From assembly GCF_964204645.1 (NCBI RefSeq), contig NC_134029.1, positions 7,396,001 to 7,460,000 on the forward strand: a stretch of 64,000 nucleotides of DNA, read 5' to 3'. The stretch is from Tubulanus polymorphus. Lineage: Eukaryota > Nemertea > Palaeonemertea > Tubulaniformes > Tubulanidae. This document shows positions 1,408 to 39,900 of this stretch, one piece after another. A model generated the notes under the pieces. It was not told the DNA's origin. It was given only the letters and a program-made list of their open reading frames with translations, and made no database searches. The position numbers and the translations under genes are program-made. Position 1 is the stretch's first letter. Each line of letters opens with the position of its first letter.

Positions 1408-4400
1408 TCATCTCAGTAGGAATTTCAACTGATGCGTTATCTCCGAATCGACTAACGACATCTGATGCTGAAAGTTCTGCGCGCCGAACACTTGTTGACA
1501 TTGAGCTAGTTGCGAATTGACGAAATCCTTCATCGATATTGAATGTACAGGATCATGCAGGTTTACCTGAAATATCATATCATATACTGCTATATGTTGA
1601 TGAATACCACTTCATTGGGATCTGATTCAGACATACGAGAAGCTTATGTATTTCGTACCTGTCTTTTTCGTTTGTCATGTTCAGTATCGGATTCATCTTC
1701 TTGTAGATCCTCTTCGCTGAACACCAAACAACTGAAAGGTCGCAAGAAAAGACACTTCTACAAAACCTTGATTACCAGGGCAATCAACATATGAACATGT
1801 TAATTCTAACATGGTGTCAAAACCCACAATGAAAAACCAATAAGCTTGAAAACATCAGAAGATTCATTAAGAACTCTGAATCTATCTATATTTAGTACAG
1901 CACTTTTCAAGTAAAATTCTAACCCATTCTATGGAGGAAATCCACTGACACTGACAGCTCAGAAGCAATTCGAAATGACTTACTCGATATGAGAACTGGA
2001 ATCTTCATCCGACAGACGACAAACATCGTGTAATATCTCCACACATAGATTTACATTCGCTCCGAATTTCTCAACAACGACGCTAAAATACATTAGATCA
2101 AACACTTTACTTCTGTTTATAATAAATACATAATGGGTGATATCTCTCTCCATGCACTTAAAGATACGATTCTTGATACGGATTCTTATTCATTGCAGTC
2201 ATTATTTACTTTTATGTACCCGGTACTTAAATAAATACTCTTAACTGAATACCTGTTATTGCAAGGGAGCAGAGAAGCGCAAGCGAGGCCGACTAATTTT
2301 CTGCGTTCTGGTTGAGTGATATTGTCGATTCGTTCGTATACCATATCCAACAATGAACCGAGCACCTGATGAGTCTAGAACAGACGATAAAATAAACATG
2401 CACGCTGACACTTACAAATAAACCAAGAAATCGAACGCAAATCTTGTTAGATGCTTGTTATAAAAAGACAAACCCGAAGGAAGAAAATTCTTCTCTTATC
2501 AAGCCATAACAGTAACTTCATTATACTGCCTTAATTCACGTGAAGCATTTAACTTTATGTCTATTTTGGATATGCTTGAATGTTGTAGGAATAAATCTGA
2601 AATAAAATGCCCGTACATATATACTCACATCGGCCTGTATTTCCCTTGAAAACTCATCGATGAATAACCAGAAGAATTCGCTATTTTGAAGAATAATTCT
2701 CGATACGATGGATAAATACGCCGCCATTAGCACCGGGTAGGACTGAAGAAAGGAAACATTCATCATTTAAAAACAATTTCGGAAGAACGGTTACAAAGAT
2801 TTTCTCCATTAAATGAATTGAATATGGAACACTAAATGCTGTAATCGTTTGTAGACATTTCAAGCAGCTATTTGCACATATTCACAAGTACATCATCGCT
2901 AAGCAATAGACAAAATCTTTAAGGTGTAACTACCTCTGGGCTCAGGTCTGAGTTTATAGACAGGTATGGTAAGACAACCAAACCCATCAGATACATTCAT
3001 TTACTGATTTTTGATGGTAAAACATATCTCAAGAACAATGTGCATTTATAATATTATTCATCCCTTGGACCGTGTGAGTGTTTGTCAACATCATGCGGTT
3101 CTGATGATAATAAAGCCCAATCAAAGAAACAGCAATGGAAGTTATTGCGAGATTAACCCAATTGAAATTTACTTCGGACACAAATCATAGCTGTGTTTCA
3201 CAGTGTTTTCTCAATTCTAGTTAAATATAACAGCCATTCTGATTGGCTGCACAGTTTTAAACGGGGTAGCTGTAAAAATATGCAACACCACTCTTGAAAG
3301 ACTTCCCGTGCAAAATAAGATGATACTCGTACCTCTCCTTGAAGGATATTCTTCACAATTCCGGGCAACATTGATTTGAATATCTGAGCACCTTCTACAG
3401 GGAATATTCGAAGTACCAACTCAACAACCTATAAAACATATTCACATATTTCGAACCCGGTTTTTTCTATAGGTTTCTACGAAATCAATTCTAACTCTGC
3501 AATTGTTCGGCACAAACCTTCATCACCATTGCGATTCCCTCGACCCTCATGTCGCTGATCAGCGACGATATCGATGTGACCAACGACGTTGAATAATCTT
3601 GTAGAAATTCTTTCGGCGCCAAAAACAAATAGCTTTCGATAATCTTGAGACAGGTGTGAAGATGCTCAGTACCTAAATCTATATGTAAAAGGATATCTCA
3701 ATTATCAGTGACAGCCCTTATTCTACCGTACATCATATTGTCGAAAGTGAGTTGATATAAGTCTTTCTATAAATCATTTCACTGTACCTAGTAATGCTGG
3801 CATATTTTTGTAAAGAGCTAACAGTCCTGGAGTGATAATGGGCGAGTTGTGTAAAGTAGTACGCCATAATTCCAAACCATCCTCCATCAAATAGATATGA
3901 GGCTCTTGTGTAACGTCCGTACTGAGTTGAATACCGGGAAACAGGAAATTATAGGCGTTCACGCATAACGTGCCCAATCCCTGAAATTCGTTAACAAGAA
4001 ATGGATGCTTTAGAAGCTGTGCACTGATGAATCGATGATGTTAGTTATGCCACATCTTGACAAATATCTTCTAATTTAGCATTGTCTTCTGTATATAAAT
4101 ATTGGTAGTAGTCATACATTCCACGATAACAAGATCATTTGTACTGCTAGGAGCCCAGAGAGGTGGGATCAAATAATTTCTTCATTAAAAATCAACTAGC
4201 AAATGCGCTACAATCGTCAGACATTTCATTGCCTGCCCCAATTTCAGAAGTGATCAAAACTTCACACTTCAATGAAGAATAATATCTAATGGGGGTCGGT
4301 TATAGCCTACAGAATGATATCTGCACGAGAGGCCATAGGGATGCCATTTATGAAACATTAGGACAGACATGTGAATAATACCTGAACTAAATTCACTAGC

Positions 4401-7400
4401 GTACTGAGTATAGCACATCTCAACATATTGTGTTCAGCCGCCGCATCCCAGAGCATCGGTAGATAACGCAGAAGGTGCTCGGCGTGAGGTTTTATCTCCT
4501 TATCGGCGCGTTGAATTATGAAAGACATCACGTGCAGTATCTGCATTTTAGTTTCGCACTCGACGACCTCCTTCAGCAAGTTGAACAGCAAACTAAAACT
4601 GCTCTCCAAATACTGTAACGATAAAACGCAGTAGTTTTATTTCCTTGCATTTTACAATTCAAGAATGTCTCAAGAAGCATGTATAATGTAACATATTGGG
4701 CCTAGTTTCATGAACAATTTAACTCATATCGTACTTCATTTGTCATTCGATTCTTTACCAGCGTTAGTCACATTTTCCTTAAGTGCAAACGTTGCAAGCT
4801 TAAATATTCACTTTAAGTTAGAATGATAAAAACTTATTTTTCATGCTTATATGCTTTTTCAAAGATTTTTACCCCATGATTGAAACCATTTAAAAATTTT
4901 TTAACATTTTTACCCCATGATTGAAACAACTTTTAAAGCAGCTAAGCTCTAACTTTTGAGTAAAATTGAGACCCCACGATGCTATCGCTACTTACTGGCA
5001 GAAATGAATCGATTGAAAACTCAAAATCATCGATTGGTAATATGTTGTCAAGGAATCATAAACACCGTAATACTCCGACATGCGCAAGTATCGATAATAG
5101 CACTTTCCTATGTTGAACTGATTTTTCAACTAACTGACGTAAACGGAATACTGACTAGTTAAAAGGATATCAAGTCGTAGAGTATTGGCAGCTTGTATAT
5201 GTACTACACGATCTTCCCCATCTTTTAACAACTCAAGAATATTCTCGTACAACAACGGACGAAGATTTGGCGCTAATTTCACGTTAATCCATTCGCCGAT
5301 CAACCAGATCACACGCCTTCGAATCAAACGATTCCTGAAAATCATATCAAATAAACTGGTTTACGATTACTATAAAACTGAATAAGAATGATATGTAACA
5401 ACTAGTGATTGGTCTGTAATATAGGCCTAGATTGGATTAACCCTTTCAGTGCATCTACACCGCATTGCGGTGTACGAATCAGTGATGGATTTTGCTAGTA
5501 CTGAGTATATTGTGTATAGTGTATTTATTTAATTAGTAATTACTAATTATCTCTCTTGAAAGATGGCAGCTCCTGTCAAACATAGTGAAATATTAGCAAC
5601 TAACGATATACCGCGCCAGGGTGTAGACGCACTATAGTGCTATTCCCGTTATTCAACACACTAGGGTGGAAGCGGGCAGTGAGTGGCAGGTATAATGACG
5701 TAACACTTCACAACGAGTCGCGAATGAAGAGATAAAATATGAGTCCCACAATCACGAAGTGGATTAAGTTAAAATATGGAAACATGAAAATCTACTTTCA
5801 AAAATAAATTTCAACGTTTTCGTGCTTTAACTTTTTGGCTTCATGATTGTGGGACTTATATCTAGAGGTAGGTAAAGATCAGTAGTGCTTAACTGCTTAA
5901 GGCTAATTAGGGTAGTGGTACCGGTACTGCCAAAAATAGTGCTACCTACAGCAAAGTCAAAGATATTGTGGCCTAGGTTAGATAGACTATGCACGATTAC
6001 AAACTACCTTCATTGTTAATAACACATTTCAATGATGGCAACTGGGGAAACCTAGCCAAACTAGCAATGCATTGGATGCCGAGATTTCCAAAAAATCATT
6101 ACAACTATAACAACTTACATCGGGCCTGCCTGGTGAAGTTCTGGTATTAGCTTAGACGTGAACCATTCGTCAAAATTAATCTCATCAAACAGATCATAGG
6201 ATGCCAAACCAACAGCATTATATACTACAAAACAAACAACTTTTATTCAAAAACGCTGCTAATGGCCATGTATTCGGAATTAGTCTCTTAAGTGTGATTT
6301 CTTCCACCAATCATAATCAAATCATTTAATGAGAACCCTACCAGCTATGCCGCTAGATGGCATCCGTATCAAAAGGACAACTCAAAATTTCATTCATTTA
6401 TAATCAACTTTCATCTACATTTTTAGCTTTCCACATCAGAAATTAGCCCCATATCATGTCTATTGATAGACTTGATTGAAGATTAGGGTTTATAGATAGC
6501 GTGAATTTTATTCATCACTCATACAATTTGAGAAATTATGGATAGATTATACGTAATCGAATTAGAGAAGAAATCCGGCGTTGTTGTCCGAATGCACATT
6601 AGTGGGGCATCCTTGCCTGTCACAAGCAGAATCCTAGATCGCATAGCCTAATGTTCAGGCTTCTTTCAGAGAATGAAAAATGCCAGCGAATTAACAGTAA
6701 AGTAATACCAACCAGCATCTTTACGCAATAGAATAGTGAGGTCTTCACTATTGGCGACATCATTAATCTCATGCACCATAGACATAACCACCGGCGTCAA
6801 TATCTCGCGATATTCTTTAAATAATGTTAGATAAAATACTTCAGTGCACGGCTGAAAAATGAACAGTTAACTATAAGACTCTTTACGGCAAATAGCAATA
6901 GAATACCGCACCTGGTTGTAGATCATTTCGACATTAACTATGGGGATATTCCTCAAAAAGCTGATAAGTTTTTTTTATAAATGTTCAAATAGCCTTGTTT
7001 GTGAACTTACTCGTAAACTGTATTTCCAAGAATCTCCAGTTTCAGCTGAAACTAAACACAAAATGGAACCTTTAATAGTTACTTACATTGTTTGAGGCAA
7101 AAGGATCTAAACATTTCAGATTTTCAGTCACCATAGTCGTAAGACCCTAGGTTTAGGCGATTTACTATATCGCAACATTTTACACACGCAATCATAAAAC
7201 TGGCCCACGAAGTTTGGCGAGTAAAGATATCTATACAAATTCTCATTTACCGAAATCTTCTGGATTGCTGTCCCATTCCGCAAGATCATCCATCGTATAG
7301 AGAAAATATTGGTTGACTAGTATGTGACAAATCTCTTTCAGAACGTCGGGAGTGAAAAACTCCTGCTTGATCTTGATCACTTGTATCCTCGCGGGGTTTT

Positions 7401-10188
7401 GAACTTCTGCAATTCGAAGCGATAAACTGTTAACAAACAAGATCTACAGCTCTCGAAGAACGCAGGTTCAACTACAATACGCTTGAGGCAAATTTTAGAA
7501 TAACTACAGGAGTGGATACAGGGGGACCTTGTCAACTATGGCCTTCCAGAGAAATGAGGCCAAAAAAATTCATTAATGTACTGCACCTTCTATTGGTTTT
7601 GAAGTACGGTATTTATCACAGCGGATTATGTTTTTCATCAACACAAAAAAGTTAACATGCAATCTCTCCGATAACAGATCTGTAAAAAGAATATGAAATC
7701 ATTAAACTAATTTTTCATCCATCAAGCCTTGCTTAGATTATTCGAAGTAATGTGAAATTTCAGACGCAGCCCGCAAATTTATACCTTTTCCGCGATTAGT
7801 AAAATTGTACTGTACGATCAAGTCGAGCGTTGGCTGTAGATAGTGGATGAAAGACAGAGGGTGATATTCCTGGGCATCAAGCAGCTGAAAATGGAGGTCG
7901 AGTTAAAACAATATTGGGTAAACACAAATGCTGGTCCCCACTGTACCGATTTAGGCGTAGCTTTCAGTTCATTTCTAATTGCCTATTTCACAAAATTGAA
8001 AGAGTTTTGGGCATTCTGCTCAAATTAAATTGAGTTTCAAGCACCTTTAAAAGCATTTTCTGTTTTGGAGTTTTTCAGGAATCAAGGAGGGACCCTGTGT
8101 TCAGCATACTAGATATACCAACCCAAAAATTTTGAACATGTAAGAGAGAATATGAACTTATTTTGTTGATAGAAATGAATCCATTACTATTTACTCTGAG
8201 AACTAAGTGAGAACAACTACATACCAACTTAGTTAATGTAACCAAACATTTTTCGCGTTGTTCAACCAGCATTTCATTAATCTGTGACATCTGATTTTCT
8301 ACAAATTCATAATGGCAAAAAGAAATTCATTCAATTTTTCGAAACGAACTCAACGTCGATTTTAATGCTTGACACAGAGACTACTCACTCGCTTCGAGAA
8401 TGACTCTGCACCTTTCTAATAATAACCGAATGAAGTTCATAGGATCTTCGAAGTGACCCGGTTCTCGGAAACCAAAGACGTACAGCTTTCTCAAAACTGA
8501 AACAAAGCAAACAAGGTTGTTTATGACTGATAGTACACTCAGGATTTGTAAATACGACCAAAGTGCAACAAGTTAACTCAAATTCATAAGAATCTGCAAG
8601 ATTCAATCGTGAAAATTTCTGCAAAAGAATTGTTCGTACCTTTTAAAGCTAATAAACTACGGTCCATGTATCGCGTCATGGCTTGAACATCACAACTGGT
8701 GCCTCCTGACTGCATCATGTGAAAATAGTGCGTTAACTGATTGTCCCATAGTTTCATAACGAATCCGAATGTATTCCCAGCTAACTGTAAAATATATGAT
8801 AACATATATACTGGTTGTGAAGAGGGTGTTTTGCCAGTGAAAAGAAATCTGTAAGATCCAGGGTTGTCCACATTAATTCAGCATATGTTTGATAATCAAT
8901 TCAGGTGGTTATAAAAATATCTCCGTTACATCCGAAATACAAGGATGGATTGAGGATTATTTCAAGGGGTGGACCCCTATAATTTAATTTTTCACCTTAC
9001 TTGAAAAGGGCAGACTTGGCCGTGCAAGTGTTGCAGATCATCATAGGGGGTATGTGGGCCCATCTCCAGGAAACATTTGAAAATCGAGGGTTCATATCAG
9101 GGCATCTGGATTTATTTTTCATTTTTTTGGTTAAATTTTCTTAGCTGAATTTTTGTAGGATTTTGAAGGGGGTGGATGGAATTCCTTTACTGACCTCTTC
9201 AAACAGTTTTCTGTCGGTGACGAGGCGTTTCGAAGCTAACGTTTTGATGACGTGATAAAAAGTGAGCAGAGCTCGTTGTTGTAGCAGAGCATCGTCGATT
9301 TGCACGGCATCGAGTAGAACGGGGATCAATTCCGTCCAGTTTCGCGGACAGTCGACGCGAGCGATCTTACCGATCAAAACGGACAACTGAGTGGCAATCT
9401 GCAACGGATTAAAATTAGGCCGTCAGGTTCAAATCCGAGGGACAATGTCACTCTGCAGGATAACAATAGGCGTAACAAATTTGTCACTCACTTGATTCAC
9501 CGGTTCGTTAAAATTCGTGATCAACTGTTGACGTAAAAGAATTTTCTCAGCTTCAGATATCGCACTGAAAAATGTAAGTGATGGTTTAAAATTTTGGTTT
9601 TTTTTATACAGAGAAACTCATGAACTTTATACAACAGAAAAATTCAATTGAATCTGACCTCCTGATAAATAACCATGTACTTAAATACAATTTTAGTTGT
9701 CACCATGACAGTTATCCAACAATTAATTGTAACCAATTTTTGAGCAACTTTTAATGCTAACACTGATCTGTAAAACTAGATGAGACAAACATTTGGACAA
9801 TTAATTTTCTTACTTCGGGGCATTTTTTCGCCAGTATCGATCGACTCCATTTTTGAAATATAACACGGCTAGCCATCGAACGTTCACATCAATCGAATGA
9901 TTGGAAAATATTGACTGAAAAATACATTTTTGTTATGAATACACATAGCTGATATGGCAAGAATTTTTCCATTTTCATTTTAAATTGTGAAACTTTTTCG
10001 ATTTGAAAACACTGTTAAGATGGTAGACCTAGTCAAGAAACTACTCTTACCGCTAAAATGCTATAAAATCCCGGCTTAGTTTCCCATTCTTTGAGCTGAG
10101 CCTCTGCAGGTTTAAGCACTTCAGTGCTTTGGCTACAGGCTCTCTGTAATGTGTCGAGGACCACAGGTCCCGCAGTCTCAGCATTCAT
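1408..10188 (-). CDS. IPO11: Importin-11 (karyopherin-beta family), 24 coding exons
   Basis: Importin-11 is a nuclear import receptor of the karyopherin-beta/RanGTP family, known for importing charged ubiquitin-conjugating enzymes. Minus-strand coding exons, 5' to 3': 10188-10051, 9914-9814, 9564-9492, 9398-9195, 8784-8640, 8496-8389, 8298-8225, 7884-7785, 7679-7587, 7406-7251, 7045-7011, 6851-6713, 6224-6119, 5334-5171, 5036-4996, 4612-4382, 3980-3788, 3678-3518, 3428-3333, 2742-2629, 2365-2253, 2082-1984, 1731-1659, 1566-1408. They sum to 2916 nt, 971 residues plus stop; human IPO11 is about 975. Reading phase is kept at every junction and the translation tracks the human protein (remembered) throughout, e.g. 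LKPAEAQLKEWE, NVRWLAVLYFKNGVDRYW, CPRNWTELIPVLLDA, IQLSTDV. The N-terminal part is the importin-beta N-terminal/Ran-binding region; the rest is HEAT repeats. All introns are GT-AG except 5037-5170, which is AT-AC. The ATG follows a strong 3' splice site by 10 nt, so an upstream non-coding exon or a trans-spliced leader is expected. Confidence 0.96.
4866..4927. repeat. Short tandem duplication in IPO11 intron
   Basis: The 21-mer beginning TTTTTACCCC and ending ATTGAAAC occurs at 4866-4886 and again at 4907-4927, a 41-bp period with two copies. It lies in the intron between exons 15 and 16. Nothing suggests a function. Confidence 0.7.
5037..5170 (-). other. IPO11: U12-type AT-AC intron in IPO11 (134 nt)
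   Basis: Read on the minus strand, the intron begins ATATCCTTTT, the U12 5' splice-site consensus, and ends TTAC. It carries TTCCTTGAC, a perfect match to the U12 branch consensus TTCCTTRAC, with the branch A at 5048, 11 nt from the 3' end. Splicing G|...|CA here gives ...LRLAIDDFEFSIDSFLP, which lines up with human LKLTVDDFEF. No GT-AG alternative keeps that segment. The minor spliceosome is therefore the predicted processing machinery for this intron. Confidence 0.93.
5438..5660. mobile_element. Possible piggyBac-like MITE remnant in IPO11 intron 13
   Basis: TTAACCCTTTCAGTGCATCT followed by ACACCGC starts near 5438, and an inverted counterpart (GGTGTAGACGCAC) lies at about 5619-5632. A TTAA directly followed by CCCTTTCAGTGC resembles piggyBac-family termini. 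The right end is degraded and no second TTAA is in the expected place, so the limits are approximate and the family call is tentative. Confidence 0.35.
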
Positions 10189-11563: not shown

Positions 11564-13171
11564 TTATAAGTCATACGTCGGTAAAGTTTTGTAAGGATTT
11601 AAAATGCCGTTCGGGTCGAGCATTTTCTTCATATCCTTCATGAGTTTCACGGCGGAATCCGATTTACTGTAGCGGATGTAGTTATTCTTTTTCACGCCGA
11701 GCCCGTGTTCGGCGCTAATGCTGCCGTCGTATTTCGAAACGACTTCGAACAGAAACGGCTCGATCTCGGCTACGACCGATGAATCGTATTCCTTCGTCGT
11801 CAGATTCAAGTGCAAGTTGCCGTCTCCGACGTGGCCGTAACCGACGCAGACGTCGACTTTATCTTTCAATTTCGCTCGCATGACCTCGACTGGTTTGTAC
11901 ATATGTTTTAAAGGTAACGACACGTCGTACTTGTACGAGTAACCGGCGTGTCGCTGCGCTTCTGCTAACCTTTCGCGAACGGACCAAATATTCTTCATTT
12001 TAGATTCGTCCGCGGCGATGGTGCCGTCCGAAACGATCTCCGCGGATAAAAGTTCCTCTAAAAACGCCGTTAGCTTTTCTTCGTTGTGGTTCGCGTTCGA
12101 GCCGGACACTTCCAACAAAACGTAAAACCGGTTACGGGAAATCGGATTTCGCAAGTTCAGCTGGTTTTGGACTAATGAAAGGGCTTGCATATCGAGGAAT
12201 TCGAACGCCGATAGAATGTCCGCTAGCTGTGTCTTAGCGCGCCGAAGGATTTGTAGGACGATTTCGAATTCTGCGACGCCTAAAAACGCAACTTGCGTCG
12301 ATTTTGGCAAAACTGGACACAATATGGCAGCTTTCGTAATAATTCCGAGGGTCCCTTCGGAACCTACAAATAAATGTTTGAGGTCATAGCCCGTATTATC
12401 CTTCCGTAATACCGACATGAAATCCATGACATCCCCATTCGCTAAGACGACTTCTAGTCCCAGTAGATTGGCGTGAATCGATCCGTAACGTAAGACTCTC
12501 ATTCCGCCGGCATTAGTAGCGATATTTCCGCCGATATGACAGCTTCCTTTAGCTCCTAAGTCCAAAGGCATCATCAGTTCATACGTGGCCAGATGTTGGT
12601 TCAACGTTTCTAATATGCAGCCGGCCTCGCAAACCAACGAACCCATAAGAGGGTCTACGTGCAAGATCTTGTTCATCAATTCCAGACTGACGACTACTTC
12701 GTCGAACACAGGGACACTTCCACCGACCAGACTAGTATTACCTCCCTGAGGAACGACGGCTAACCTATTATCGTTGCAGTATTTCATGATCTCCGACAGC
12801 TCGTCGGTTGTTTTCGGTTTCAAAACGACAGGACTCTTCCCTCGGCAGCTTCGCATCCAATCGATATTGTAAACGTCTAAATCGTGGATATCCGTGAGCA
12901 CTCTGCCGGAGCATAATACTCTGAAGAACTCGATATCGGCCTCGGATATCGATCTGAAATGACCGCGTTTGATTTCAGGCCGCATTTCACTAGTAAAAGG
13001 TACGTTATATTGGCTGTTATGCCGACATGCGAGACCAGAACGAATGCCATACGCGGTATAATTATTGCAGATAGCTCTACATTGTAGTTTCTGCTGACGA
13101 ATAGTGTTCGTAGTTCTTCGTATACTCTGCATTAGCAAAGCGACTCTTGACTTTTGGGCGTAAGTAATCAT
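11564..13171 (-). CDS. D2HGDH: D-2-hydroxyglutarate dehydrogenase, mitochondrial (single exon)
   Basis: This FAD-dependent enzyme oxidises D-2-hydroxyglutarate to 2-oxoglutarate in the mitochondrial matrix and passes electrons to ETF. The ORF is 535 residues (human about 521). The first 50 or so residues are rich in Arg, Gln, Ser and Thr and poor in acid, as in a mitochondrial presequence. The PCMH-type FAD-binding domain follows, with PQGGNTSLVGG at 141-151 and GGNIATNAGG further on. The C-terminal FAD-linked oxidase domain has GHVGDGNLHLN (His447 and His454) and SAEHGLG (Glu488), the metal-ligand residues of this family. The stop follows MLDPNGILNPYKTLP, the usual family C-terminus. The whole CDS is one uninterrupted exon, unlike the intron-rich IPO11 next to it. 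An in-frame second Met at residue 14 could also be the start. Confidence 0.96.
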   Translation of the reverse strand: MITYAQKSRVALLMQSIRRTTNTIRQQKLQCRAICNNYTAYGIRSGLACRHNSQYNVPFTSEMRPEIKRGHFRSISEADIEFFRVLCSGRVLTDIHDLDVYNIDWMRSCRGKSPVVLKPKTTDELSEIMKYCNDNRLAVVPQGGNTSLVGGSVPVFDEVVVSLELMNKILHVDPLMGSLVCEAGCILETLNQHLATYELMMPLDLGAKGSCHIGGNIATNAGGMRVLRYGSIHANLLGLEVVLANGDVMDFMSVLRKDNTGYDLKHLFVGSEGTLGIITKAAILCPVLPKSTQVAFLGVAEFEIVLQILRRAKTQLADILSAFEFLDMQALSLVQNQLNLRNPISRNRFYVLLEVSGSNANHNEEKLTAFLEELLSAEIVSDGTIAADESKMKNIWSVRERLAEAQRHAGYSYKYDVSLPLKHMYKPVEVMRAKLKDKVDVCVGYGHVGDGNLHLNLTTKEYDSSVVAEIEPFLFEVVSKYDGSISAEHGLGVKKNNYIRYSKSDSAVKLMKDMKKMLDPNGILNPYKTLPTYDL

Positions 13172-14415
13172 GATTTAGCCTCAAATAGGTTGCTTACATT
13201 GATTTTCTGCGGCGAAATCGGCCTAATGAAGTAATTTTCATCAACTGTGAGCTGAGCGAACCCGGAAGTTTTTATTGAACCGCCCTCGTTATCGGACCAT
13301 GTCGTATGAAAATCTTGATCTTGGACCAATTAAATTCAATTCAATATTATCCTCGTCAATTGCGACTGCTTGGAATTTCAAAAAGTTTACTGGATGTTCA
13401 TCACTTCTTTACAATATACCTGTCCTTTTTGATGTAAATTTTGCTTTCCGTTGAAAATTAACTTGAATTTCAAGCGAGAAACTCACGTTTAACAATATAT
13501 TCTATTGAATTGAATTGGTCTAATTGGCGACATGGTGCATATTGCTATGTCGAAATTTAGAAGTGTCAAATATATTTTTTCCTATGAATATCTTAGTTTT
13601 CATTGCATAACCGATGAATACAGCATCCTACATCACTCATTAGCAGGTGACACTACCGACTACTACGCCTACTTACGATAGCAAGGATAGGGGAATTATT
13701 GATAAGGCTTTTTAATTGCAATCTTGACTTTTGCACTCGTCTGAGGTGTTTGTGCGTGGGGAAACCCCAACCCGGAAGCAAAATCTACAGGAGCGTGCAT
13801 CGGAAGTTGTAGGTACTGCAAAAACGATAATGTGTCTATAGTAGATCCTCTTTTTGCTGTGCCTACAACTCTGACACAAACCCCCTGTGGCTGTGGTAAA
13901 ATCTAACAAGCCAAAGAATAAAACTGTAAAAATGCAATCAATCTCTCAAGCCAAGATGCAAGTCCATATGCCCACCCCACCAGAACTTCAGATACACTTT
14001 ACTTTGGGGTGTAGTCTGGAATAACAGATGATGTACTGGTTCTTATATCATCTAAGAACCCACAATAGCGTTTTAATGACAACTATATAATTCTTTTTTC
14101 ATTGACATTTTGCGTAGAATGCTACTACTCATCTTCAGTTTTATTCCAGATAGACGGGTTCCCCTACAAAAACGGCTGATGCCTGCTAGACCATACCTTA
14201 TAACTGAGGCTGGAGCATATTTTTGACTCCAGCTTTTATACAGTAGATGGCTATGCCACATAGTGCTCTTTTTTTCGTGAATAGCATATTTAATGAATAT
14301 TTTCTCTTCCTGCTTGCTGTAGTTATGTTGATAATACCTAATCTGGAATGGGCTTTTAAACTTCAGATCATTATGCCTATGCGTGACACTAATCTGATTG
14401 TCGATCTTTTTCAGG
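13172..14415. other. Divergent intergenic region between D2HGDH and the F-box gene
   Basis: This 1.2-kb region separates two head-to-head genes and should contain both promoters. A strong 3' splice site (CTTTTTCAG, ending 14414) abuts the F-box start codon, so the F-box promoter and 5' UTR exon, if conventional, lie within it. No TATA box at a convincing distance, no repeat and no ORF that looks coding were seen. Confidence 0.5.
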
Positions 14416-15738
14416 ATGAATTGCGAAGATGTTGACGAAGACGCCGGAGAACTCTATTCGAACTTGAAACATTTGCCGCCGCCGATTACCGCAAATATTC
14501 TGTCCTTTATTCCGTGGCAAGAGAAGATTCAGTTCGTCACCGAAATCCTGCCTGAATGGAGAACGGGCCTTTACAGCACGGGCGCGTGGACGCACTTCCA
14601 CATTCCTCACTTCATGCGACGCGGCGGAGAAAGCGACCACGAACACGAACTGCGCGAGTGCATCACCGAGTATGGCAAATATATCCAACATTTGACAGTG
14701 GCGCTCGTCGCGTTCAACTACAACCTCGACGACGTGAACATCCAACTGCTCGAGCATATCGCCAAGTGCTGTCGCAGTTTGCGAACTTTCCGCGTCGACC
14801 ATCCATCGTCGGTTAGGTTCTACATGCAAGACGTGTTGCATCGTTACGCGAAGTTGCTGCATGATATCGCTGAGGTGAACTGTTACCTGCGCTCGGTGGC
14901 GCTGTGTGACATTACATACATGCCGTTCGACCGCGCGTTGGGTATGAACGAGTTTTTGTCGACATTTCTGCCGTATGACAAACTGACGAATTGCGTGACT
15001 AAACTCGAGCTGTGCGACTTCTACGACTACTCGCAGCCGTACGAATCGTTGTGTCGATTCACGAATCTGAAAATTCTCAAGATTCTCGTCGAGGTGTTGA
15101 ACACAGACGTCATACTCGGCATGTGCGCGATGTCGCTCGAGCATCTCTACATCGTCAACAGCGGTTCGGCGATCAACGAAGAGTTCCGCGAGTCGGAACG
15201 CATCGACTGGGCGGCCGTCGCGAAAAAGAACCCGCATTTACGCGTGCACTATATCTATCAAGAGCGCACGATCAAAACGGACGACATCGTCGCGAACGAA
15301 CTAGTGCAGTCGGTCGTGTTGGACAGTTTGTGCAACCCGGTGAACAGCGAAATCATGTTGACAATTATCTCGAATCAGGGTAAAAATTTGCAGACGTTCG
15401 CGCACTTGGACACGTACTGGGATTACAACGCGTACGGCGAGGATTTCGACTACGTCGGCTGTTTCTCGTTCATGTCGCGTAGCTGCGAGCGTTTGAAAGC
15501 GTTCATATCGACCGTGCGGATGTCGTGTCAGGCGTTGATGGAGATGGCCGAGTCGACCGCGTTCGAGCGCGTGCTCGTCGTCGCCGAGCAGCTGTTTCTC
15601 GATTTCGACTATTGCTGCAGCGAAGATTTGAACATGAAGTATTTTCAGCGGTTCATGCGCGATTCCGTCGGCTCGGGCTGGGAGTGCGCGTCGCAGAAAG
15701 ACGTGCGCAGCAAAGTGCGCTTTCTTTACAAACTGTGA
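14416..15738 (+). CDS. F-box protein, FBXO39/FBXO33-like (single coding exon)
   Basis: The product is probably a substrate-recognition subunit of an SCF (Skp1-Cullin1-F-box) ubiquitin ligase. The 440-residue ORF starts at the ATG one base after a CTTTTTCAG splice acceptor; FBXO39 is about 442 residues. Residues about 12-55 fit a divergent F-box: LPPPITANILSFIPW, then PEWRTGLYSTGAW. The rest is LRR-like, with repeated L-x-x-L-x-L spacing (KLELCDF, LKILKIL, LEHLYIV) and a segment IDWAAVAKKNPHLRVHYIYQ that resembles the FBXO39 block WAKLARQATNLKVNFFFER (from memory). Third codon positions are GC-rich, producing long antisense shadow ORFs that are not genes. Assignment to FBXO39 rather than FBXO33 or a lineage-specific paralogue is uncertain, so no symbol is given. 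Confidence 0.82.
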   Translation: MNCEDVDEDAGELYSNLKHLPPPITANILSFIPWQEKIQFVTEILPEWRTGLYSTGAWTHFHIPHFMRRGGESDHEHELRECITEYGKYIQHLTVALVAFNYNLDDVNIQLLEHIAKCCRSLRTFRVDHPSSVRFYMQDVLHRYAKLLHDIAEVNCYLRSVALCDITYMPFDRALGMNEFLSTFLPYDKLTNCVTKLELCDFYDYSQPYESLCRFTNLKILKILVEVLNTDVILGMCAMSLEHLYIVNSGSAINEEFRESERIDWAAVAKKNPHLRVHYIYQERTIKTDDIVANELVQSVVLDSLCNPVNSEIMLTIISNQGKNLQTFAHLDTYWDYNAYGEDFDYVGCFSFMSRSCERLKAFISTVRMSCQALMEMAESTAFERVLVVAEQLFLDFDYCCSEDLNMKYFQRFMRDSVGSGWECASQKDVRSKVRFLYKL

Positions 15739-25861: not shown

Positions 25862-28800
25862 CCAGTTCTAGATTTAGGCGATTACTTTTTAGATTCCGTC
25901 ACTCATTATCTCGAATATTCATGTACATACATTATACATATTTACAAGTTTAGCGTACTTTTTGTTAGTTCGCAGTCGAAGCGGGAAAGTAACTGATTTC
26001 CTCTTAAAGCCTATCTGGTATAAGTTAGTCAAAAATACTTTGTAAGCTACTGCTAGCCCCAAAGCTATTCTGTGATATGTTTCCGTAGCTCCGAAGCCAA
26101 TGTGAGATTTCAATGTTTTAAATGAACTCGGACGTATATATCTAATACCACACTGACGTTCACGCACATTTTTGTTTATGCGACATGTATCACATAATGT
26201 AAAATATGTATAGTAGGAAATGAGATATGAAAATATATATATTTATGTATACATGTGAAGAATAAGGAGATTCCGTTCTTTTTTGTTTTTAAGTCTCAAA
26301 TACTTGTTTTTGTCAAACCTATCCTCGATTCATCCGTAGATTGAGTATACGTATCTACTTCATTTTATTTCCCGCTTCCAATATTGATTCTTGAGCATTT
26401 GTGCAGACGCGTGCGTGACGTCCGCGTAGATGGGTACCCAGAAGAATATCATACCCCGCCCCGAGATCCACATCTTCACCCGTTAAGGGATTCGAACTCA
26501 CTAAGCGAGAGCGAGACCGTTAAGCGAGATCGGGGAGCGATTCCGTGGGTTGAGAGTATTAAACAACCGCTAAATCAAAACCGAATTGGAATATCAAACT
26601 AGGAACCGTCGAAATGAAAGATTCCTAAGTAACTGTCTCGAAGTTAGTTCAGCGGGTTCAAACCACGAATTCCCGGATCGTTTTGAAAATCGTTGTGAAA
26701 CATTATCGGTTAACTCCAGCCGCGAACGGCCGCCATGGGTTCACCTGTTCACGTCAGACAATCTGCCCACTTCCGGGAAAACGGACATGCGCACCGCACG
26801 TTAACGATAACTCGTCGGAGTTAACCCCAGATTCAAGAAGTTAATTGGTGCGAAAATTACTCCGCTTGTCTGGAGATTCTACGTGCGGATAATCTTCAAA
26901 GGGGCCGAAATCCGTGCATCTGGCTTCTTTCGTTGTGTGCCACGAGATTTTTCGGCTGCACCGAACAACAAATAAAACTACGAATATTACGTATATCTGT
27001 ACGCAAAAACGTATATAGTTTGTAAATGTAATTATGGATCGAAATAACGAGTTTCGAACATACTAATTGCTTCACGTATACACGACGTATCAACTCTGAA
27101 GGATACTTAGGTGCAAAACGAACAAAACGTTTTGTTTGTCTCTCAACTAGGCCGGTTTGCACTGCGGTGGAAAAGGAAAAAATGATACACTAACACTTAT
27201 AGTTAGTTGCACTTCTTAAGTAAAATGACGAAAAACTCCACAAACAAAACATTTTTGAAAATAACATTGATAATAATTAATAATTGTAAGTTATTCAGCC
27301 TAAAATCCACATGAATGCTCGTTGGCTTTACATTATAAAAAACGAACATAAATCAGAGAAAACTAAAAATGTATGAACATTCTTTTCATACACGAAAACA
27401 AGCATCAAAGGAACCACTTATAGGCCTACAGTGCAATCAATGCTGCATCGCATATGAGATTTGTCTAGAAACCAATCTAATCAGTTCGGGTGAAATGATT
27501 ACAGTCGTCATGGCTCACAGAACGTCATTCCTCCCATAAGGTGGAGTGATTGCTGACGGAACCTAAGTCATCGTCTTTTCAGTCCTTCTAAAGTGGCAAA
27601 TGTTATTTTGCAGCGTGGGATGACGCAATTGCATTTTTACTAAGCTGACCTTTTGATGCAAATGCCCTATGGCTTATTGACCAATTAACAAAACTGAGTA
27701 GTGAGTGACCACAACTCTGCTAACTCAGCTATCATTTTCTGACCTTTCCATTCATTTCTAGAAGCATGGATGAAACATATAACTAGACCAAAAAATACGA
27801 CGAAAGTCGATAAAGTTCGTAGAAGGGAACCGTATTTTGCGTTAACAGCTTCAAAGGCAAAGGCTCGTCGTAAAGAAATAGTGGCTGCCGATTGGATTAG
27901 ACCAAAACTAAAATGCAAGCGTTCACTAAGGATCAATGCGTAGCCTCAGGTGATTTCGCAATACGGTATGGTTTCGCTTTTTGACGATGAACAGCTCCGA
28001 TGCCGGCCGCCTCCTCCTCATTCATAAAGTATCGATAGGTTAAAAACCGATCGAGAAGAAAAAAACAATCCTTGAACGTCTGATGAACTGCGCACGTATA
28101 TATGTACCATCATCCATCGATCCTGACAGTTTGCAATGGTGTCCGTTTCCTTGTAGTACGATCACTGGAGTATAGTGCGATCTTATCAAATAGAACGAAG
28201 GGTCTGTTGAAAAAAGACGAGATACGCTGGGTTGTTTTTAGTCAGTTACATTGTGAGGTCATAAATGAAATTGGTTTGAAAGGCATATATATTATCAATC
28301 TTAGTGAATGGAAATTACATCTATAAACAAATGTTGTTTTTTTTTCACGTTAGAGCGACAGAATCAAAATACATTTCTTTCGGGCGTATTGCGGCTGATC
28401 AAGATGTCATCTAATGAAGAAATAATAATCTAGTTTCCCGCAAGCATTTTCATTATCACACAAGGTTTAAGGTAGCACGGTTTTGGTTCGCTAATAACCT
28501 CTTACATTGCACGTTTCGGTGCAAAAAAATCGAACGATGAACAAATACCAATTTCACAAACAAATATAATTTTCTTTCCAGACGAATGCTTAGATTTTCT
28601 TGGAGATGGTATTTTTATTCCCGAGAAAAGGATCGGCATTCCTATCACAATCTTAATAAATTTCACTTATCCTTCGGCAAACATTGAGGGGGTCTAGTGT
28701 CTGAGAGGTATTCAGATGTCGGCCAAAAGTTTTTCTTCTCAGACATCATTAAATCACATTTCATGGACGAACAACAAAACGATATATTATACTCGATGTT

Positions 28801-34325: not shown

Positions 34326-36938
34326 ACTCTGTTGACTTGACTTAATTTTGCATCGTCAAGTAGGCCTGCTTGACTGTAGTGGACCAAATAAAAACTAAAT
34401 ACTAACTGGAGATTAGAAGCCCCAGCGCTCCATTCGATATGAATGTCGGTAAAATGGGACCCAAATACTTCAAGGTTCTTTCTTACTCGGTGTCACCAAT
34501 ATCGACTACCGTTTATTTTCATTTCAAATGTTTACTTTAAAGAATACGTGCCACCTTTCGAAAATGTGTGGCATTTTCCTGGAAGTATGATAAAATAGAC
34601 GGAATAACAGGCAGATATAGAACATCGATATATGTTTTTGTCACGAAAATCTATATCACTTCTTGCGCTGTTTTTGTTCACTTTGTTTTTCAAAAAAGGA
34701 TTTGAATTCCAAATGTAAATTCTTGGAAAACGAAAAATTTACTACGACTGACAACAGCGTTCGTTGTGGTGCACGTCGACCTGTGGCATCTAGACTGCCT
34801 CGGGATCCAAGAGACAGACGCCGCAAATTGAACAAATCTCGCGGAGGAACCAGCTGATTTATCATTTTATTATGACGACGTAAATAATTTGAGAGATCTG
34901 CAATGAAGGTCATAAAGGATGGATAGAATCTGGCCAACTCTTGTGTAAATCAAGCGATTTTATTACCCACCCACAGAGTGTTAGAAAATGTTAACGGTGA
35001 TTCGCTATTATTATTTTTTCCTTTTTTTCGTTATTGCCAGGAGGAAATATTTTCTCGTGTTTTGTTGCGAGAGTACAAGTCACATATTTCGCTCTCTCTC
35101 GGAAACACTAGGGGAAAAGTGAGGTAACTGCTGTAACGAAATTGGGGAGCGTATACTTCCTTAAAAAACTACAAATCCTAAATATTTCCTTTCAAAAGTT
35201 GGTATATATACTTGTACCGAAAGCGGTTAGGCGCGCTGAACAACAATTAACCCAATTGCCATTTTATTGAATTACCTTAACCCAAGGTCATTTCAATGTG
35301 CCACCAAGGCTCTTTGGAGAGACTCGTTAAAGGAATTTAGATATCCATAAAATTTGCTGAATAGAATTCAACGACGGCCGTAAAAACGAGAATCCTTTAA
35401 GTTTATGAGTGACTGTTTCAGCAGATAAGAATTCCATAATTTCAGTACACACGTATTAAATTCAAGCAACCATGACTTTTCAAGTTGACTATTAACTTCT
35501 ACTTATGTATAGTAAGAATTACGTACCAACAGATTCTACGAAATAGTTAAGTATTCCAAATATTTTCCCATGGAGCTGTTACACAACGGTAAATCTACTA
35601 CGCAATAGATTGTTTGGCAATTATGTATCAGAAAATAATTGGGATTCTACCGCTAGAATTTATTAGTAACCGTTGGACCTTTTTTTCTGTTATTTCTGTA
35701 ATAACTAAAACCCGCGTGACTCAGCCATCGGAACTCATCTGACAAATTCGCGATAATCAGCCCAACCCCCGACTGGTTATCGCTATGAAAATTGTCCTGG
35801 AATTCCGCGATTGATTATAAGGCTCGAATCATCTGATGAAATACTAACCACCAACAAGATAAACAGGTGTATTCAAACTTTTCTACAGTTATCGTACATA
35901 ATAATTATTTACGGCACTCCGGAACAAGTCCTCTGTGGATAAAAAGAGTGAGAAATTAATTATCAGCGGTAGTAATATCTGTTGTATATTCTAAATCTAT
36001 TTTGAAACTCACGGGAGTATCGTGAACATTAATTAACATTTAAAGGCGTCAGTTTATGATCACATCGAAAAAGAAATACAAATACATATTTTTATTCCTA
36101 GCTAGAGCTAGAACATTTTCCGGGTTCAGATGACACGGAATTTTGTTTTCGATATTTACTTTACAACAACTACCGGAGTCGTGATACACGACCGTCGCGT
36201 AAAAGTATACAATATGCCAGTAATCTTTAAAAAAGAGGTCACCCCGCTTGGCACAGATATCAGTGGCTCTTCTTGATAACGAGAATTATAAATACGGCTG
36301 TCCTTAATGTGAATACTTCATAACTGATCTGCGCGCATTACTAGAGCGACCGTCTGGTGATATACAGAAAAAGGACTGCAAAACTAAAGGAATAAGGAAC
36401 ATGATTGTACTAGTCACATTTTGGGATTTAATCAGTTGAATAGAATTCAAGATTTTATTTTCGTCGATTAAAACTTGAAAGTTTTTCACAGTTTATCACT
36501 GTAAGCGTAGTTCACCTGTGCGCGCGTATTGACGAAATTAGACAGGTCGTGGTCGTTTGGCCAAAATAACGGCGGAAATTCAGACGTTTGGAGGACGTAT
36601 TTCTAACTTGTCGTCGACAGGACAATGACACGGCGAGATTAATATCGATACCTAATTAATCGGTTTTGTTCGATTTCGTAGACTGTTCATTTAGTTTGAA
36701 AAATATATACATAAAAAGTTTTCATTGTTTAAAATTTGCCGTGGGAGTCGCCTTTGGCTATTGACTCTGGTCTCTAATTACATGCGTGTTCCATTGAGTG
36801 ACCGGTTCATTTAAGGAGTGTCGTATATACACGGTAAATACATTAATTTGGACACATTCATAAACTAACAGTGCCGCCCGCTTTCTTCGAGTAAATAGAC
36901 TCTTATTTGCTACGCTATTGTCGAGGACTTATTTACTT

Positions 36939-39900
36939 ATGTTAAAGTTTGTCGTACACCCCACCGCTGGGGATCATACCCGCCGTGGCGATCATACCAA
37001 CCAAACAGTATCAACGACGACCAAACGATATCGAAACGCGGGTCTACATAATCTGCACGCGCTCGGACAGCCGGATGATAACCCTAACCGAATCATCGAA
37101 GGTCAGGTTCTTTACGACGCGGGCATAACTGCAGTTCCGATTTATCAAATAAACGGCGTCACCGAGACTAGCTCGGAAGATTTCTGCGTAGAGAAAATGG
37201 AGAATCAACTTCATCCGCCCCTTAGACGTCAAACCGGCTCGGTGAGCGTGGGTCCGAGGTGCGCTCCTACTATGGATATGATACGAGAAAGGGAAGAGGC
37301 CTGTCAAATTTACGGTCAACGTAAATCGTCGGATTTAGGATACTGGTCAAACGAGGCAAGCAGACGTTCTAGTTACCAACCAGCTGCGGGGGAGAATACC
37401 GAGAGTTCTGGAACGAAATCGAAAAATCATGTCATCGAAGGGGCTTATCAAATTTGCCAAAAAACGTCGGAAGAATCGAATGGCATCCAAAAGAAACGTC
37501 ACGCCTGGTCCCGTCAGCGAAGCAGGACTGTGACAGAAGGTTTAATTGCCAGGACTGGAAAGGAGAAAAGGGCAGATTCGGCGCCCTCGACGCCTAAACG
37601 GAAGATATCTCTGAAACAGAGGAAATCCAGTAGTTCATCTGGTGGAATATTCAGCTTGAACAAAAAACGGTCGAAGAGCATAGATTTTTCGTGGTTTCAC
37701 AAAACGAACTTGTCGCAGGCGTCGGCGGCGTCGTCGTCTCTTCCAAAGAACGCCGATCGAGAGTCGAAATATAAAAAGACCAGCGCGTCTTCGATGCCGG
37801 AAAAAATGTACAAGAAACTTCGCATCCGCAGCCGCAGTATGGACGGCATGTTAGACACATACCACATGGCGAGAGACGAGGACACGGGCCGTGCGAAAAA
37901 ACGAAAAAACTCATCACAAATACAAAAACTAGTCGACAATCTTGGATTGTTTTTCCATAAGAACCGGCGATCCACGTCGGAGAGTAACATTTACTCGTCC
38001 GTGTACAATTATCAGTTACCACCGCGGTATAATTTGAACTCGGAGGATTCCCTGACTACCGACTCCGAGATCGACGAGAATCATTTGTCAGGTTATGACA
38101 CTTCGGACGAAGAAGATCAATTTTACTCTTCCGTTTATTCTTCAGCTATGCAAAAGGCGAAAACACCTTCAACAACGCATAGGATTATACCGAAGAAATG
38201 GCGCACTAGCAAATCAAATAAAATGCCGAATGGGCCGAACAAAAATTTATGGACACCAGAGGTAAGTGGAGAAGGAAAATTGATTTACGAATAAAAAGAA
38301 AACCACCCTAAGACGCAATTGAAAGGTTTTGTAATTAATAATATAATTCATTCAATTGAAGCGATATTCCTACGCATGCTCAGTACGCGAAAACTTTCGG
38401 TTTTCTTTGTCATGCTATGTATTGTTTTCCTAACCACACATTCTTTTGAAACACGAAATGAACCTTCAGTTATTCAATTTCGAATAATCCCGTGAAATGA
38501 ATGTGTGAAATTATACAAACATCGAAAACGAGAAATGTCAAGTTTACCCGAAGTTCAAATGAAAATTGCCTATTGCGAACCGATATAGGTTTAGGTTTTG
38601 GAAATATTTGCTTGCTCGAAGCCTTCGCCGAACACAATAAACAGTTTTCATTATGAAAATAACGACTTCCAAAAGTCATTTGTTCGTACAGTGATCAAAA
38701 GGGCCAAGGGGTTCGTGAAAAATTCATCGTTTGCGCTTCCTCCTTTGAACATAAGACCTCACTCATTCTCCGTAATCAAAATGAAATATGCCAACAGATC
38801 TTGCAAAACTCGGAATCCTGGAATTACCGTCGTTACGTCTGATATAGATTCATTCTGAATCATAGTCATTTAGTATTAAGTACTATCACTGTGAACCGAT
38901 TACCGAGATAAAATCTTATATTGCTCGTTCACTTGATCATTTAAGAGACGATTGGTTTTTATCACTCATGACTAAGTACAGAATCATCCGCTGCCTCTGA
39001 CGCTGTTCAAAGAGCGACGTCCTCGGATCGGAGTTTGATCGATATAAATCACGTGTCTAATCGTTAGCATAATCTGATTTATCATTTGTGTCGAGGCTTG
39101 ATATACCGCGTACACAAACGAACCGATGATCTACTCCGAACAAAGGTCTAAATTCTGCAGACAGATAAATATCCTATTCTGTTGGTCAATATCTGAAATA
39201 TTTCTGGAAATGAAATGCGTCGAAGGACGTCATACGTCATCCATATGTCTAGTCTTGTTAGACTTGATCATCAGAATTTCTTCTTAATGATTACCGCGCA
39301 TCATTCTTCTAAAAAGGAACAAGGCTATTATCTTAACCTCTACGTCGATAATTCGATTACGTTATTTTTGTTTGTTTAGACATCTTTCTGACCCGAGCCC
39401 TTTGTAAGTCGTAGTGGAGAAGGAATGCGAACTTTGTCTTGAATGCGATAAGGCCGGTGTTGTCAAAGAATATCACTTTTCACTTTTTTGGTTTTCAGGG
39501 TTCTTGTACTTGGAGCCAGATGGGAGGACGCAAAATAGTCCTCGGGAATACTACACTTCTTAACTTGTCCGAAGTGGAGCGTTTGGCTCTCCAGAAAATA
39601 GCCGTGGCAAAACTCCAGGCCCTGAATCTAGGGTGTGCCATTACAATACCGAAAGGCAAGTATAATGTAATGTAATTGGAGTCGATTGGTTGTTACAATT
39701 TGTGCGTTACCTTGGGGTCTGCAGCTCCCTAATGCGAGGGGAACAGTTAAACTTGCCATTCGTAACCGGCGGGTTGCCACATACATCAAACATTCTTATG
39801 TAACTTGCGAATATTTTCTTGTGTTTTGTTAGCCAAGAAAAGATTAATTCTCGCTGTGAGTGGGGAATTGGGTTTCGACTCGTGTGTTTGCCCGCACAAT

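Follow-up and report, generated by a model that had tools for sequence, protein, structure and literature searches.

A very probable U12-dependent AT-AC intron in the importin-11 gene of the nemertean Tubulanus polymorphus

Among described minor introns, the U12-type AT-AC intron of human SMYD2 reads ATATCCTTTA...TTTCCTTGACT...AGCAC and interrupts its gene in phase 1 (PMC7367187). Within the importin-beta family, intron 21 of human IPO5 is a U12-type AT-AC minor intron (PMC8280824). Furthermore, the genes whose AT-AN minor introns are retained upon CENATAC depletion are enriched for nucleocytoplasmic transport, and 92% of the A-type minor introns were affected by this depletion in human cells (PMC8280824). 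The intron described here, intron 13 of importin-11 (IPO11) of T. polymorphus, has nearly the same 5' site, branch motif and AC acceptor as the SMYD2 intron and shares its phase (PMC7367187), but SMYD2 is another gene than IPO11. IPO5 in turn is a paralogue and not IPO11 itself. No report naming a U12 intron in IPO11 was found in the literature search, but this intron may well be catalogued already. Both terms, “IPO11” and “minor intron”, occur in a FUS interactome study. Relatives for a comparison of intron positions were not found in the viral_contigs and genome_contigs scans, which are sets without animal or plant genomes.

The window, i.e., the whole stretch of 64,000 nucleotides that was analysed, carries the importin-11 gene on its minus strand. 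The following features are referred to below.

1408 to 10188, minus strand: coding part of the importin-11 gene as modelled by hand, with 23 exons and 943 aa
5171 to 5334, minus strand: IPO11 exon 13, 164 nt, its last base being the first of a GCA (Ala) codon
5037 to 5170, minus strand: very probable U12-type AT-AC intron (IPO11 intron 13), 134 nt, phase 1
5161 to 5170, minus strand: U12-type 5' splice site ATATCCTTTT
5047 to 5055, minus strand: U12-type branch motif TTCCTTGAC, with the branch A presumed at 5048
5037 to 5038, minus strand: AC acceptor dinucleotide
4996 to 5036, minus strand: IPO11 exon 14 (41 nt), which codes for (A)IDDFEFSIDSFLP
4382 to 4612, minus strand: IPO11 exon 15

In the hand-built model, frame-keeping GT-AG sites were picked for the 21 introns besides intron 13, and the position of the stop at 1408 was counted off the model's exon table. 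Some outer exon edges are less certain and possibly a few residues off. Exons 14 and 15 are linked by an ordinary GT-AG intron (4995-4613, minus strand). The product matches the Pfam families TPR_IPO11 (298.6 bits, cut-off 27) and IBN_N (65.3 bits, cut-off 21), and its top relative of solved structure is yeast Kap120 (6fvb, E 4e-75), followed by Importin 7 (E 6.4e-10). The Pfam and Kap120 matches bear out the identity of the gene as given in a previous sequence-only reading of this DNA. A search of the whole genome (267.8 Mb, 77 contigs) with TPR_IPO11 returned four matches, each of them an exon of the importin-11 gene of the window, and no second copy was seen in this search.

Apart from importin-11, an uninterrupted ORF of 535 aa with FAD_binding_4 and FAD-oxidase_C domains is located at 11564-13171 on the minus strand and presumably encodes an enzyme of the D-lactate dehydrogenase type. 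Two further ORFs overlap each other on opposite strands (14398-15738, plus strand, 446 aa; 14389-15237, minus strand, 282 aa), and another one of 458 aa is situated at 36918-38294 on the plus strand. For these three ORFs, no Pfam match was obtained at E 0.001.

IPO11 intron 13 starts with ATATCCTTTT and ends with TTCCTTGAC-AACATATTAC, its terminal stretch being TTCCTTGACAACATATTAC. The 5' site agrees with RTATCCTT in 8/8 positions (5170-5161, minus strand) and the branch motif with TCCTTRAC in 8/8 positions as well, and 11 nt separate the presumed branch A from the intron end, for which an optimum of 11-13 nt is described in U12-type introns (PMC3584512). The sequence-only reading had proposed a perfect 5' site, a perfect branch motif 11 nt from the 3' end, an AC acceptor and a 41-nt exon downstream, all of which are found here, the acceptor at 5038-5037 and the exon as exon 14 (5036-4996), both on the minus strand. 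The AT-AC termini are among the matched pairs (AT-AC or GT-AG) expected of U12-type introns. In case of the other 21 IPO11 introns, modelled as GT-AG, the U12 5' site score ranges from 2 to 6 out of 8. U12-type introns are expected to lack a distinct pyrimidine tract ahead of the 3' end; the pyrimidine content near the intron end (9/15, compared to 8-12/15 in the other introns) does not separate intron 13 from the remainder.

AT-AC ends as such would also be compatible with removal by the major (U2) spliceosome, since U2-type AT-AC introns are known, e.g., from sodium channel genes (PMC2831892). These sodium channel introns carry a G at +5 (PMC2831892), whereas IPO11 intron 13 has a C at this position, within ATATCC, and its complete U12 branch motif, 11 nt from the intron end, likewise speaks against removal by U2. 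We regard this explanation as extremely improbable.

The window contains a single match to the combined pattern ATATCCTTTTN{95,120}TTCCTTRAC, and none of 100 dinucleotide shuffles contains one. A slightly looser version yielded two matches in the whole genome versus one for the reversed control, and thus the motif pair by itself is no proof of intron 13. The deciding evidence is that the motifs are placed exactly at the junction demanded by the protein. Exact matches to the U12 5' site are found eight times over both strands of the window, one of them being that of intron 13. The matches at 27106, 25512, and 49813 of the minus strand and at 11631 and 21628 of the plus strand were rejected by eye, as they show no convincing coding flanks together with a branch motif, and those at 3696 and 3349 of the minus strand fall within intron 16 and exon 18 of the IPO11 model, respectively.

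For the choice of the junction, 838 pairs of splice sites (GT-AG, GC-AG, AT-AC, AT-AG, and GT-AC; any frame, between 5334 and 4996, at least 40 nt apart) were scored against a stretch of Kap120. The AT-AC pair 5170/5037 reached the top score of 244, followed by a GT-AC pair with 235, and the best GT-AG pair (5144/5020) scored 221; retention of intron 13 and skipping of exon 14 reached 132 each. Over the AT-AC junction the alignment to Kap120 is free of gaps (RVVHIQAANTLRLAIDDFEFSIDSFLPYL versus KVVLLTTVQTVRTMVDDWNFNKDTFQPFL). Due to the distant relationship to Kap120, the score margin over close alternative junctions is modest, and it is the U12 motifs and the ungapped Kap120 fit that jointly decide the IPO11 junction. 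The boundaries 5037-5170, as drawn in the sequence-only reading, are upheld by this scoring and by a frame search near the exon edges (GT, GC, and ATATCC donors), in which the AT-AC pair is the sole frame-compatible one. A wider enumeration gave 42 junctions whose product is longer than 900 aa. Consequently, the earlier statement that no other splice brings back the conserved segment holds insofar as the AT-AC junction is the best Kap120 fit of all 838 pairs, but has to be restricted in view of the in-frame alternatives among these 42.

Seven of the 42 junctions are in-frame GT-AG or GC-AG choices and would turn intron 13 into an ordinary U2-type intron with other boundaries, e.g., 5144 to 5020, a pair that keeps the frame and still aligns to Kap120 with its score of 221. 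This score stays below the 244 of the AT-AC junction, and the DDFE residues are deleted by this pair as well as by all seven choices. Moreover, their common acceptor at 5020 (TCGATGATTTTGAG) lacks a long pyrimidine tract, and the perfect U12 motifs would be left unexplained. An ordinary GT-AG intron is therefore considered very improbable.

It could further be argued that the motifs are fortuitous and lie where the gene is broken or skipped, i.e., in a pseudogene or next to a dropped exon. Reversed as a control, the strict AT-AC motif pair still gives one and two genome matches, which shows that such pairs do occur by chance. The 23-exon hand-built model is nevertheless open from end to end, the junction reads without a gap against Kap120, and importin-11 would be cut to 520 aa by skipping of exon 14 or to 527 aa by retention of intron 13, which leaves hardly any probability for this explanation. 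In view of the sequence evidence, we are highly confident that importin-11 has a genuine AT-AC intron of the U12-dependent class at 5170-5037 (minus strand).

The first 12 nt of intron 13 allow for an 8-nt pairing with the genome's own U11, including one G-U pair, and for a 7-nt pairing with its own U6atac, compared to at most 4 nt with either RNA in case of the other 21 IPO11 introns. The corresponding duplex energies (-7.2 and -7.3 for U11 and U6atac, respectively) are the lowest of all 22 introns. In the predicted branch duplex, TTCCTTG is paired with U12 and the branch A is left unpaired. The energy of this duplex (-7.5) was dropped as a discriminator, since lower values are obtained for 3 of the 21 other IPO11 introns.

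The DNA directly shows the splice signals, the reading frame, the match to the protein, the genes of the snRNAs and the pairing that is possible. In splicing, U11 would probably base-pair at UCCUUUUA in the 5' site and U12 at UUCCUUG in the branch motif, with the branch A left unpaired, and U6atac would displace U11 via AAAAGGA:UCCUUUU. Intron 13 would then be excised and exon 13 joined in phase 1 to the 41-nt exon 14, which would yield the conserved LRL-A-IDDFEFSIDSFLP segment; retention of intron 13 or skipping of exon 14 would lead to an early in-frame stop. That splicing actually takes this route in the cell is what we infer. The presumed order of the steps is borrowed from known minor spliceosomes, in which recognition by U11/U12 is followed by the exchange of U11 for U6atac and by removal of the intron (PMC3584512).

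A search for minor snRNA genes, as suggested along with the sequence-only reading, revealed all four RNAs above their Rfam gathering scores. Among the best candidates, which were the ones scored, at least one match each was obtained for U12 (111.8 bits, cut-off 53), U11 (98.1 bits, cut-off 39), and U4atac (73 bits, cut-off 53), and at least three for U6atac (96.5, 93.5, and 40.5 bits, cut-off 33). Since scoring covered the best candidates only, additional copies are possible. In 14 control genomes, no matches to U11, U12, U4atac or U6atac were found. An ACACC motif begins 59-67 bases upstream of the RNA start of U11, U12, U4atac, and the two strong U6atac copies (L001-L005), in four out of these five cases in the form ACACCG, and resembles a proximal snRNA promoter element. 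Its presence in the -80 to -55 band of all five was never reproduced in 20,000 mononucleotide shuffles, a value which is descriptive as the element was spotted before the test. Furthermore, the two strong U6atac copies carry a TATA box at -32, and at -30 of the U12 gene there is a word resembling TATA. The third, weak U6atac copy (L006, G000:C8:15260197-15260307) has neither ACACC nor TATA and is probably a pseudogene. For U4atac (1-66) and U6atac (11-60), a long duplex of -41.6 kcal/mol is predicted. With regard to proteins, the genome contains a relative of PDCD7 (228.9 bits, cut-off 27), and a relative of CENATAC is represented by its zinc-finger exon (38.8 bits, cut-off 25.3). The SCNM1 zinc-finger model gave no match in the genome, but neither did it in any of the 14 control genomes (0/14), so that this is no evidence of absence.

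Three strict U12 patterns with exact letters and set motif spacings, which do not amount to a census of U12 introns, gave 2, 6, and 3 matches (11 in total) in the whole genome versus 1, 0, and 2 (3 in total) for the reversed controls. The excess is weak for the two AT-AC patterns (5 versus 3 matches), and for the GT pattern 6 matches are opposed to 0. In case of 7 out of the 11 matches, including IPO11, protein relatives read over the predicted junction. The flanks of the ten matches besides IPO11 comprise six with a solved relative over the predicted junction, and these are listed here as likely further U12-type introns (loci L009, L010, L011, L013, L014, and L016).

Glycyl-tRNA synthetase, AT-AC: solved relative reads over the junction
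Gamma-tubulin complex component 2, AT-AC: solved relative and Pfam match over the junction
TAF2: solved relative over the junction, Pfam TAF2_3rd downstream only
BBS7: solved relative and Pfam match over the junction
Lethal giant larvae relative: solved relative reads over the junction
c-Myc-binding protein: solved relative over the junction

No Pfam match above cut-off spans the junction of glycyl-tRNA synthetase, TAF2, the lethal giant larvae relative, and c-Myc-binding protein. In the match of the latter, only four residues precede the junction codon; another hit at this junction, to a flagellar associated protein, covers more. By eye, no recognisable protein was found over the junctions of L012 and L015. 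At two further AT-AC motif pairs, L017 (G000:C3:7045913-7047413) and L018 (G000:C8:13722515-13724010), the flanks are open and look coding, but no PDB match was obtained and Pfam matches over the junction are weak and below the cut-offs. Given the snRNA genes, the relatives of PDCD7 and CENATAC, and the U12-type introns backed by proteins, it is almost certain that this species makes use of the minor spliceosome.

Every feature of IPO11 intron 13 fits a known kind, and the result is a sound annotation and not a new phenomenon. It appears rather unlikely that the U12 intron of IPO11 is a gain specific to this lineage or a remnant that most other animals have lost, as opposed to one that is widely shared. 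If this were the case, importin-11 output would be set by the activity of the minor spliceosome, with retention or skipping truncating the protein. Minor introns together with their machinery are the usual state in animals. Minor introns appear to be lost or nearly so in tardigrades and in some mites, midges, and copepods, and in these midges and copepods many minor snRNAs are missing (PMC10639083); therefore their presence here is informative. For this species, the importin-11 gene model is fixed with a 41-nt exon behind a non-GT-AG intron, and the lineage to which it belongs keeps genes for all four minor snRNAs and, very likely, U12-type introns in several genes.
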